Virus record (IMG/VR): IMGVR_UViG_3300013004_000143
Coordinates: 1-28,834 of that record
Strand: one strand, 5' to 3'
DNA: 28,834 bases
Source of the DNA: a virus
Each line of letters starts with the position of its first letter. The stretch's first letter is position 1. Under the pieces are notes generated by a model. That model was given only the letters and a program-made list of their open reading frames with translations, ran no database searches and was not told where the DNA came from. A program made the position numbers and the translations under genes. Of the stretch, positions 15,094 to 18,285 are shown piece after piece.

Positions 15094-15582
15094 ATGGCGG
15101 ATTTATTAATGAAAATGCCGATTCCTTACGAACCGAAAAGACAGAATCGATTTATTTTAAGGTTCCCATCAACTTTGGGAATAAATGAATGGTTTGTGGA
15201 ATCAACGGCACGTCCACATATCACGATAAATGCAACTGAAATTCCTTTTTTAAATACTTCAACTTATGTTGCAGGTAGATTTAACTGGCAAACTATTCCT
15301 GTTGTATTTAGAGACCCAATTGGTCCATCAGCGGCACAGGCACTTATGGAGTGGGTACGTTTACACGCAGAATCTGTTACAGGTCGTATGGGATACGCTG
15401 CGGGGTATAAAAAAGATATTGACTTGGAGATGTTAGACCCAACCGGTGTTGTTGTTGAAAAATGGATTATGTACGGAACATTCTTAACAGATGTGAACTT
15501 CAATAGTTTGGCATACAATCAAGATGGTCTTGCAACAATTAACGCGACTTTAAGAATGGATAGATGTGTATTGGTTTACTAA
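15094..15582 (+). CDS. tail tube protein, T4 gp19-like
   Basis: Subunit of the inner tail tube through which DNA passes. The length, 162 residues, is almost exactly that of T4 gp19 (163). The family pattern is clear: RQNRFILRFPS at the start, GINEWFVESTARPHITIN, then NTSTYVAGRFNWQTIPVVFRDPIGP, a helix AAQALMEWVRLHAES, DIDLEMLDPTGVVVEKWIMYG, and a terminal strand ATINATLRMDRCVL. The ATG at 15094 follows a 31-nt A/T-rich leader after a TATTTAT box. The gene is monocistronic in appearance, since a strong hairpin with a T-run follows. A gp19-like tube next to a gp18-like sheath and a tape measure fixes the tail as contractile. Confidence 0.95.
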   Translation: MADLLMKMPIPYEPKRQNRFILRFPSTLGINEWFVESTARPHITINATEIPFLNTSTYVAGRFNWQTIPVVFRDPIGPSAAQALMEWVRLHAESVTGRMGYAAGYKKDIDLEMLDPTGVVVEKWIMYGTFLTDVNFNSLAYNQDGLATINATLRMDRCVLVY

Positions 15583-15622
15583 TATCACAATACTATTGAT
15601 AATAAAATAATTAAATTTATAT

Positions 15623-15665
15623 TTAACCGTAGAGAAACTATAAACTTTCTACGGTTAATTTTTTT
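15623..15665 (+). terminator. intrinsic terminator after the tube gene, touching the next start codon
   Basis: TTAACCGTAGA (15623-15633) pairs perfectly with TCTACGGTTAA (15648-15658), an 11-bp stem extendable by a G-U and an A-U pair, followed directly by seven Ts (15659-15665). The next ATG is at 15668, so only two bases separate the T-run from a start codon. It should terminate most tube transcripts and pass a fraction into the gp26-like gene. Confidence 0.88.
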
Positions 15666-15667
15666 AT

Positions 15668-16411
15668 ATGGATAATCAAACAAGAGACTACGGACAACAG
15701 AATTTATCATTACCACATGATATTGTACCACTACCATCGGGTGGTGTTTTTTACAAAAATAAAAAACAATCGGTTAAGGTTGGATACCTTACTGCGATGG
15801 ATGAAAATATTATTATGGCAGGGGGTCTTGACTTTACAACCAATTTATTACGGGCCAAGTTATATGAACCCGACATGAAAGTTGAAGATATGTTAGAGGG
15901 AGATATCGAAGCGATTTTACTATTTTTGAGAAACACTGCGTTTGGTCCTTTAATTTCCTTAACGGTAAATGACCCTTTAACAAAAAAAGATTTTACCGCT
16001 GATATACCTTTGTCAGAACTGAATATTAAAAAAGGGGAATCACCAAACGAAGATGGTACTTTCACACTAACATTACCTGTTTCACAATCTACAGTAAAAA
16101 TTAAACCAATTACTTGGGGTGAATCTTTGAATCTAAATAAAGTTCTTGACACATACCCCGCGGGCAGAGTACCACCTAAAGTAACATTAAAACTTCAAAA
16201 AATTATTGTTGAAGTAAATGGAGATAAGAGTATGGCAACTATAAGTCAATTTGTAGAGCAAATGCCTATTGCAGATTCAAAACACATTAAAAAGTTTTTG
16301 AATGATAACGAACCAAGATTGGATTTGAATAGAGTTGTTATAGCCCCATCAGGAGAAAAACTGACAGTGAATGTCGGTTTTGGGGTCGACTTTTTTCGCC
16401 CTTTCTTCTGA
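15668..16411 (+). CDS. baseplate hub assembly protein, T4 gp26-like
   Basis: A 247-residue protein resembling the T4 gp26 base-plate hub family. The hallmarks are an N-terminal LPHDIVPLPSGGVFY, a V..GYLTAMDENIIM strand/helix, the helix MKVEDMLEGDIEAILLFLRNTAFGP, the strand pair FTADIPLSELNIKKG, and FTLTLPVSQSTVKIKPITWGE. The C-terminal half continues with a helix-strand pattern up to DLNRVVIAPSGEKLTVNVGF and a short tail DFFRPFF. T4 gp26 has 208 residues and acts in hub assembly. Lying just before the tape-measure gene, this protein also has the position of a tail assembly chaperone. It has no TATTTAT box, and its ATG follows the tube terminator by two bases, so its mRNA must come from terminator read-through or from a start inside the tube region. 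A second frame overlaps its 3' end by 41 nt. Confidence 0.65.
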   Translation: MDNQTRDYGQQNLSLPHDIVPLPSGGVFYKNKKQSVKVGYLTAMDENIIMAGGLDFTTNLLRAKLYEPDMKVEDMLEGDIEAILLFLRNTAFGPLISLTVNDPLTKKDFTADIPLSELNIKKGESPNEDGTFTLTLPVSQSTVKIKPITWGESLNLNKVLDTYPAGRVPPKVTLKLQKIIVEVNGDKSMATISQFVEQMPIADSKHIKKFLNDNEPRLDLNRVVIAPSGEKLTVNVGFGVDFFRPFF

Positions 16412-16550
16412 TTATAGGAAATCACAATTAGACGAATTTTACTATTTGAATACTTTGTTAAAAATTTCTTATAGTGATTTTGAGAGAATGCCGGTTTTTG
16501 TTAGGAAATACCTTTTAGATAAATGGTTGGAAGATAATAGAGAGGACTGA
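16371..16550 (+). CDS. small overlapping protein, gp51/tail-chaperone-extension-like
   Basis: A 59-residue protein in the +1 (equally -2) frame relative to the gp26-like gene, overlapping its last 41 nt. Starting at ATG 16371 it reads MSVLGSTFFALSSDYRKSQL and continues DEFYYLNTLLKISYSDFERM then PVFVRKYLLDKWLEDNRED. The pattern of aromatic helix, 'SYSD/SY..', 'MPV..R.wll' and acidic tail is one I associate with small proteins encoded after gp26-like genes in T4-like phages and with chaperone extensions. The overlap carries a six-T run (16391-16396) where ribosomes could shift by +1 or -2 and make a gp26-like fusion. No Shine-Dalgarno has good spacing to the ATG: AGGAG at 16350-16354 is 16 nt away. 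Independent start versus frameshift is undecided; that the frame is coding seems likely. Confidence 0.6.
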   Translation: MSVLGSTFFALSSDYRKSQLDEFYYLNTLLKISYSDFERMPVFVRKYLLDKWLEDNRED

Positions 16551-16563
16551 TTTTTCAGTCCTT
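16543..16563 (+). terminator. hairpin (weak terminator or processing site) before the tape measure gene
   Basis: AGGACTG (16543-16549), loop ATTTTT, CAGTCCT (16556-16562): a perfect 7-bp stem covering the stop codon of the small frame. Only TTT then ACTATTT follows, so the T-run is short and termination is probably partial. A TATTTAT box starts 5 nt further on. Confidence 0.5.
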
Positions 16564-16566
16564 TAC

Positions 16567-16590: not shown

Positions 16591-18285
16591 ATGCAGGACG
16601 CTAATAGTGGTAATTTAGATAATCTTGAAGGTTTTAAAGAACTTATCACACCAAATTTTTTAGACGCTATTGAAAGGTTGACCTCTGCCGCGACAGATTT
16701 AAATACGGTATTTGGTCAAAATAGACAAAGAATATCTGAGATGCAAAGGGCTATTTCAGAATCAGAACCTGTTGTTCTTAAATTAGGGGGTACTATAGAT
16801 GATGCTGGTAAGGCACTTGCAGAAATTTCAGAAGGAACTAGAAGAAATGTTTTAGCAACTTCCGAAGACGTATCAAAACTATTTGCGGCTTCCAAAATTT
16901 TGAATACAGAAATAAGTACTTTGGTAGAAAATTTTAATAATGTCGGTGTACAATTTAGTGCGGTGGGGGACCAACTGGAAAAAAGCATTAGTTATATTCA
17001 AAGTATTGGTATGAATACAAGTCAAATTATGAGAACGGTAACTAATAATATGGAAAAACTTAACGAATTCAACTTTGCAGGTGGTGTTGAAGGACTTACT
17101 AAGATGGCAGCACAGTCTACGTTTTTTAGATTCAATATGAGTGATACATTTAATGTGATGGAAAAAGCGTTGAGTCCCGAAGGAGCAATAGAACTTTCGT
17201 CAGCATTCCAAAGAATGGGTATTGCTGCAGGAGATTTGACTGACCCATTCCAACTCATGTATAAATCACTTAATGACCCCGAGGGATTACAAAAAAGTTT
17301 GAGTCAGATGACAAAACAATTCAGTTATTTTGATGAGAAAACAAAAACTTTCAAAATTAGTCCTGAAGGTATGTTACAAATGAGGGAGTTGTCAAAACAA
17401 ACTGGTATCAGTTATGAATCATTATCAAAATCCTCATTAGCGGCAGCAAATTTGGATGGTGTTATGAGACAGATGAAACCTGGATTCAAATTTGAGTCCG
17501 AGGAAGACAAACAACTTTTAGCTAATGTCGCGAGGATGACTAAGGAGGGTAAATACCAAATTGAAATGAAGGGGGGTCAAAAAATTGATATTGACCAAGC
17601 ATCCCCTGAGTTACTAAAACAATTTTTAGATGAACAAAAATCTGCTCCGAAAACATTAGAAGAAATGCAAAGAAATTCATTAGGTATTACTGAAACAATT
17701 GCCGGAGATGTGAGTGCTATTAGAGCTAAAATTGAAGGGACCGTAACCGCACCCTCATTAACAGAGTTTAATGAAATGGTTAGGGATTTTATAACTTCTT
17801 CAACCGATTTGGTTGAAAAAGAAGTGCCAAAAGGTGGTGCAAGAGATGAATTGGAAAATGTGATTCAACAATCAAAAAAGATTTATGATAGTTTGGCGAA
17901 AGGAGATACCGCCGGTGCCGCAAAAACTATTCAGGAACTTGAAGGGAGATTCGAAAAATTATCAGAACAAGGAGGAGAAAAAATGGCTAAATTAGTTGAA
18001 AAATTAAAAGATAATTTTGGTGAAGTAAAATCGAAGTACGATATCTTCAGAGAGAAAAGTGGTACTTCAACCATGAAGTCCAAACCAAAGGAAACTACTA
18101 AGGTTAGTTTAGAACAAACCGTAAATTCGAATCTGAACGTTAAAGTCGACGCGGGAAATGCAAATACAAAACAAATAGAACAATTTTTGAACACACGCGA
18201 ATTTAAAGAGGCGGTATTTAATGTAATAAAAAATATGGACTCGAACTCACTAGCAACACTTAGAAAGGCGTTAAAGTTGCAATAA
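16591..18285 (+). CDS. tape measure / tail length determinator, T4 gp29-like
   Basis: A 564-residue, almost entirely alpha-helical, Ala/Ser/Lys/Glu-rich protein, close to the length of T4 gp29 (590), which sets tail length. Long heptad-like stretches run through residues about 10-160 (for example FLDAIERLTSAATDLNTVFG; EDVSKLFAASKILNTEISTL) and again near the C-terminus (DELENVIQQSKKIYDSLAKG; GEKMAKLVEKLKDNFGEVKS). A more compact middle region includes STFFRFNMSDTFNVMEKAL and a Met-rich helix. Its place after the tube and gp26-like genes and before the baseplate genes fits. I chose ATG 16591 over the TTG at 16585 because TTG is rare here. No membrane segment is obvious. If the usual relation of roughly 0.15 nm per residue holds, the tail would be slightly shorter than that of T4. 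Confidence 0.78.
   Translation: MQDANSGNLDNLEGFKELITPNFLDAIERLTSAATDLNTVFGQNRQRISEMQRAISESEPVVLKLGGTIDDAGKALAEISEGTRRNVLATSEDVSKLFAASKILNTEISTLVENFNNVGVQFSAVGDQLEKSISYIQSIGMNTSQIMRTVTNNMEKLNEFNFAGGVEGLTKMAAQSTFFRFNMSDTFNVMEKALSPEGAIELSSAFQRMGIAAGDLTDPFQLMYKSLNDPEGLQKSLSQMTKQFSYFDEKTKTFKISPEGMLQMRELSKQTGISYESLSKSSLAAANLDGVMRQMKPGFKFESEEDKQLLANVARMTKEGKYQIEMKGGQKIDIDQASPELLKQFLDEQKSAPKTLEEMQRNSLGITETIAGDVSAIRAKIEGTVTAPSLTEFNEMVRDFITSSTDLVEKEVPKGGARDELENVIQQSKKIYDSLAKGDTAGAAKTIQELEGRFEKLSEQGGEKMAKLVEKLKDNFGEVKSKYDIFREKSGTSTMKSKPKETTKVSLEQTVNSNLNVKVDAGNANTKQIEQFLNTREFKEAVFNVIKNMDSNSLATLRKALKLQ

Follow-up and report, generated by a model that had tools for sequence, protein, structure and literature searches.

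A T4-type gp26-like gene that probably encodes short and long tail assembly chaperones through a +1 frameshift at UUU_CGY

A 59-codon ORF at positions 16371-16550 (+) of a 28.8-kb virus record (the window, that is, the whole stretch of DNA analysed here) overlaps a gp26-like ORF at 15668-16411. This raises the question of whether the small ORF is a gene of its own or the C-terminal part of a longer chaperone, made by ribosomes that change frame within the gp26-like gene. A sequence-only reading had pointed out the ORF and its protein, and had proposed a frameshift at a T6 run, with an ATG at 16371 as an alternative start. Our analysis finds the ORF, its protein and the overlap as described; the out-of-register frame is +1 with respect to the gp26-like ORF, and the 59-codon ORF far exceeds chance expectation. 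The features of the locus are collected in Table 1.

Table 1. Features of the chaperone locus and its neighbours (positions in the window)
Feature	Position	Strand	Basis or remark
Tail tube protein, upstream neighbour	15094..15582	+	phrog_4542, E=4e-24
TAC-N, short tail assembly chaperone, T4 gp26-like, 247 aa	15668..16411	+	PF12322, phrog_150, 62 distinct relatives
CCCC, may pair with GGGG 16382-16385 as an upstream hairpin	16344..16347	+	wobble C invariant, 62/62
Incidental ATG inside AAT GTC (Asn-Val)	16371..16373	+	in 50/62
GGGG 5' of the shift site, possible stimulator or hairpin arm	16382..16385	+	kept in all 62
Putative +1 shift site UUU_CGC, P-site Phe UUU and rare A-site Arg codon	16394..16399	+	
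TAC-C extension, +1 frame, 50 aa plus stop	16398..16550	+	open and conserved, 62/62
Predicted fusion TAC-NC, 293 aa	join(15668..16396,16398..16550)	+	conceptual translation
Hairpin over the stop codon of TAC-C, ahead of the tape measure gene	16541..16564	+	terminator-like match
Probable tape measure protein, downstream neighbour, 564 aa from ATG	16591..18285	+	position, length

The short form is a member of the T4-type gp26/gp51 family, matching PF12322 in Pfam (E=1e-6, above the gathering score) and phrog_150 in PHROG (E=3.9e-10). Its gene is placed between the tail tube and tape measure genes, the latter recognised by position: the candidate gave no family match, and its role was assigned from position and length. 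In the nine loci examined a large ORF begins 41-49 nt past the TAC-C stop, and the corresponding downstream gene is annotated as tape measure in immuto and LIS04. A scan of genome contigs returned no bacterial host and no prophage copy.

Two scans of IMG/VR yielded 90 window-type loci besides the window, giving 62 sequences distinct at the site, window included. The +1 ORF is open and protein-like in all 62, with the conserved protein F[A/V]LSS[DNE]YRK.Q.DE[FY]YYL...DF..[MI]P.F.RK[YF][LI]...KW. Diversity in the +1 frame is 0.22, 0.11 and 0.41 at codon positions 1, 2 and 3, and the extension is therefore under protein selection, in line with the earlier impression that its protein looks real. 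Residues encoded between the ATG at 16371 and the shift site are not conserved as protein; the true extension begins at the shift site, at about 16398, and not at the ATG. The locus consists, as in lambda G/GT, of two overlapping frames in which the C-domain has no conserved start of its own. A Pfam and PHROG scan of the 59 residues revealed no clear family (best PHROG match phrog_22509, of unknown function, E=0.013), tblastn of the extension alone against INPHARED gave no match, and a sequence search against the PDB returned only chance-like matches to thioredoxin reductase.

The sequence GAC TTT TTT CGC is present at 16388-16399 as had been reported, with the T6 run at 16391-16396; the zero-frame stop (16409-16411) lies 12 nt past the run rather than 16 nt. 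The run is not the key element it had been taken for. It is absent from 4 of the 62 sequences, which read TTC TTT CGY and thus keep a T-run of just TTT, whereas the zero frame TTT CG[C/T] CCT TTC TTC is invariant (62/62). The next zero-frame codon after TTC TTC is TGA in 48 sequences, TAA in 12 and GGA in 2. At the site, Arg is encoded by CGC in 30 sequences and by CGT in 32; elsewhere in the relatives' genes AGA accounts for 78% of Arg codons, CGC for 0.5% and CGT for 3.8% (CGY about 4%), and in the 7,305 codons of the window's larger ORFs CGC occurs twice and TTT-CGY once. Wobble bases are free to vary 5' of the site and fixed from the site onward. The conserved element is hence UUU CGY, whose A-site codon is a rare one for Arg. 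A comparison of relatives had been suggested to decide between the T-run and the ATG; neither is invariant among the 62, and what is invariant is TTT CGY and the presence of both frames. The site falls outside the canonical -1 X_XXY_YYZ class, since all 62 window-type loci, window included, carry the extension in the +1 frame. The best reading of these alignments is, very probably, +1 programmed frameshifting at UUU_CGY.

We propose, with a probability of roughly 0.86, that the single gp26-like gene yields both the 247-aa TAC-N and the 293-aa TAC-NC by a +1 frameshift. TAC-N would come from the majority of ribosomes, which stay in the zero frame and terminate at 16409. Others would pause at the rare CGC codon while the P site holds Phe-tRNA paired to UUU; the paused tRNA would then slip one base forward, from UUU to UUC, and translation would resume at GCC (16398), giving TAC-NC with a predicted three-helix C-terminal domain. 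This TAC-C domain would correspond to cyanophage gp51 and to the C-terminus of T4 gp51. If the pair works like lambda gpG/gpGT, the tape measure protein would be coated with TAC-N and TAC-C would bring in tail tube subunits; shift efficiency would then determine how much long product is made relative to the short one.

The most serious competitor is an independent gene, whose translation begins at the ATG at 16371 or is coupled to termination on the gp26-like ORF. An ATG is indeed found at -23 in 50 of the 62 sequences, the window phage included; the C-domain is a separate ORF with an ATG beside the stop in L200, L206 and LR756511, and cyanophages have an ATG 5 nt past the stop. Yet the equivalent ATG is missing from 12 of the 62, no ATG, GTG or TTG precedes the site in the +1 frame in 7, and in L005, L006, L044, L067 and L085 the ATG is cut off by a stop in the +1 frame 8 nt before the site. 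Of the 72 sequences of the immuto and LR756508 groups, 25 likewise have no ATG, GTG or TTG before the site. The alignment indicates that this ATG arises from the Asn-Val codons AAT GTN, which are conserved, and is probably not the start; an AGGAG precedes it by 15 nt, too distant for a usual Shine-Dalgarno site. An independent gene would also leave the invariant TTT CGY unexplained. We consider this explanation improbable. The comparison does not bear out the alternative start put forward by the sequence-only reading, though some initiation there may occur in individual phages, the window phage among them.

That reading had allowed for either a +1 or a -2 shift at the T6 run, of which the former stands and the latter is disfavoured. 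A -2 shift at the run, present in most sequences, would enter the same frame, and Xu et al. are said to have described -2 frameshifting in phage Mu in 2004. In the four TTC TTT relatives, though, back-slippage would pair Phe-tRNA with UCU. There is no good -2 re-pairing at TTC TTT CGY, nor at the TTC TTT TGG of the LR756508 group, whereas +1 re-pairing is perfect at both; the rare A-site codon also suits +1, and we regard a -2 shift as very unlikely. Transcriptional slippage at the T6 run, leading to mixed mRNAs that fuse the frames, is less credible still: the run occurs in 58 of the 62 sequences, with a terminator-like hairpin ahead of it in the window only, but slippage is implausible in the four TTC TTT relatives, where the T-run is only three; the run is TTTT in the LR756508 group, and slippage leaves the rare CGY codon unexplained. 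Finally, a sequencing or assembly error could have split one in-frame gene, such as the in-frame fusion that exists in T4 gp51. This possibility is practically negligible, refuted as it is by independent assemblies: 62 distinct contigs share the arrangement, as do the isolated complete genomes of SP-15, immuto, Mel-JY01 and LIS04.

Conservation around the +1 site suggests that RNA elements may contribute to the shift. Codon -4 is GGG in 62/62, although GGG makes up only 9.8% of Gly codons elsewhere, and creates a GGGG 8 nt before the P codon; L008 loses the last G yet retains four through a run shifted by one base. Codon -17, a degenerate Ala or Thr codon, is either GCC or ACC, so that its last base is C throughout and a CCCC results. 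We hypothesise a CCCC:GGGG hairpin 5' of the shift site; it shows almost no covariation, and the bases could pair in other ways. Upstream hairpins stimulate +1 shifting at hungry codons on 70S ribosomes in vitro (PMC6321510), and the CCCC:GGGG hairpin, if formed, would match these. RNAalifold proposed GGAGAA:UUCUUC and GGGG:CCCU helices at the site, with almost no covariation; we keep them as hypothetical only, their 3' arms being explained by dual coding.

The hairpin that spans the TAC-C stop codon, scored as terminator-like, is also present in the examined relatives, where its arms carry compensatory changes (GGACTGA/TCAGTCC, GGGTTAA/TAACCC, GGAATGA/TCATTCC); it may be a terminator or a processing site between the chaperone and tape measure genes. 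This strong hairpin is followed by CTATTTATA. At 15620-15667, after the tail tube gene and ahead of the gp26-like gene, we also noted by eye an inverted repeat, AACCGTAGA..TCTACGGTT, with a T7 run behind it; at the equivalent place SP-15 carries an annotated terminator.

The sequence-only reading had suggested a profile comparison of the extension with gp51. When hhalign set the window-type extension directly against gp51 of cyanophages or of T4, no significant match resulted. A chain of extension profiles nevertheless connects them transitively, from window-type to immuto-type (85%), from immuto-type to cyanophage gp51 (87%) and from cyanophage gp51 to the T4 gp51 C-terminus (85%), and would link the window extension to the last of these. 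In a joint alignment of fused proteins, Phe-Phe stands at the site in nearly all rows, and a later [YW]..-MP-..R motif is aligned. AlphaFold2 models, predicted separately for the two parts, gave three helices for the extension (pLDDT 91) and a confident core for TAC-N (pLDDT 81). The TAC-N model matched SP-15 and T4-type hub proteins in BFVD; Foldseek found nothing significant in the PDB, and a second PDB comparison placed the HK97 tail assembly chaperone 2ob9 first, a weak match (Z=4.6).

We then compared public phage genomes and IMG/VR more widely, looking for a shift site at the same protein position. For single phages the direction was called by eye from frame and position, and the exact slip codon is putative. 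At the homologous position the frame is +1 in phages of Flavobacterium, Microcystis, Bacillus, Listeria and Streptomyces. It is +1 in 60/60 immuto-type phages, at TTT [CTT/TTT/CTA] TGG CCT GA (one TAC), and in 12 LR756508-type sequences, mainly at TTC TTT TGG CCT GA; Mel-JY01, RM378, SP-15, LIS04, GXN1 and BRock are further +1 phages. P-SSM2-type cyanophages are -1 in 38/38 at T_TTT_TTC, as are S-RIM8, KVP40, phiM12, ORM_20, Atu_ph07, XacN1, CBB and Cassandra; in cyanophages, KVP40 and several jumbo phages the -1 site is the canonical U_UUU_UUY. The P-SSM2-type cyanophages (L104, L212-L291) combine this heptamer with the ATG past the stop, and could possibly make both a fusion and a separate gp51. 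In L200, L206 and LR756511 (L099), which lie outside the window clade, the C-domain ORF has its own ATG by the zero-frame stop, and the frameshift appears to have been lost. T4 has two separate genes, gp26 being short and gp51 being of the same family with an in-frame C-terminal domain. As side observations, the N-terminus of T4 (L094) gp28 resembles the start of the TAC-N family by eye, and T4 gp26 weakly matches the gp28 family phrog_1140 (E=9e-4).

A TAC-N tree that omits the shift region requires only one change between the -1 and +1 directions, on a branch with modest support (91/77), and a single switch of direction is likely. More tentatively, and with somewhat less than even confidence, we suggest that a branch of T4-type chaperones switched between -1 at U_UUU_UUY and +1 at UUU_CGY or UUU_UGG while keeping the codon position, and that a slow A-site codon and the conserved upstream GGGG/CCCC hairpin jointly drive +1 shifting in the window clade, as a natural counterpart of the hairpins of PMC6321510.

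A 2016 review of tail-chaperone frameshifts named T4 as an exception (PMC5009743). According to later papers citing it (PMC10885494, PMC12846349), Vladimirov, Gautam and Davidson (2022, Virology 566:9) identified the T4-like TACs, some T4-like phages having separate short and long genes and T4 using two, 26 and 51; poly-T -1 signals are mentioned for T4-like chaperone genes (PMC12846349). The expected finding of a frameshift-type chaperone pair on a T4-type gp26 gene is supported, both frames being kept in 62/62. By the same accounts, the proposed link between T4 gp26 and gpG/gpGT had already been made for T4-like phages in 2022. In the literature, with the 2022 paper represented by its citations, we came across no +1 site reported for the T4-type chaperone family. 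Frameshifted tail chaperones and T4-like TACs were thus known, while the +1 branch and its site appear to be new. This branch is large, including phages of Bacteroidota, Firmicutes, Streptomyces and cyanobacterial hosts, and the family offers a natural experiment in the change of frameshift direction. UUU_CGY is a strongly conserved putative +1 site, containing the pair used by influenza PA-X, to test on bacterial ribosomes. Annotation can also be corrected: the phage records examined leave the C-domain out, start it at the wrong place, or list it as a separate hypothetical protein or as gp51.

The T4-like TACs share the PF12322/phrog_150 family and the position of the Phe-Phe site, gp26 corresponding to TAC-N and gp51 to TAC-NC; they differ in that the window would shift +1 at UUU_CGY, cyanophages, KVP40 and jumbo phages -1 at U_UUU_UUY, and T4 uses two genes. 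Lambda gpG/gpGT similarly provides a short and a long chaperone from one gene before the tape measure, with the C-domain in another frame (PMC5009743), but shifts -1 at GGGAAAG (Xu, Hendrix and Duda 2004; PMC5009743); the likeness drawn here is one of gene arrangement. In the haloarchaeal myovirus HSTV-2 the counterpart tail frameshift is very likely +1 (PMC5009743); its host is archaeal, and we liken it by description. The influenza A PA-X site UCC_UUU_CGU has the P/A pair UUU_CGU and the +1 direction in common with the window-type site (PMC5009743), in an unrelated gene and on an unrelated ribosome, and hence by convergence only. The +1 site CUU_UGA of E. coli prfB (RF2) also has a slow A-site codon and is similar to the immuto-type CUU_UGG; prfB, however, has a stop in the A site and a Shine-Dalgarno sequence spaced by 3 nt, whereas the window has a sense codon in the A site and its GGGG 8 nt from the P codon.
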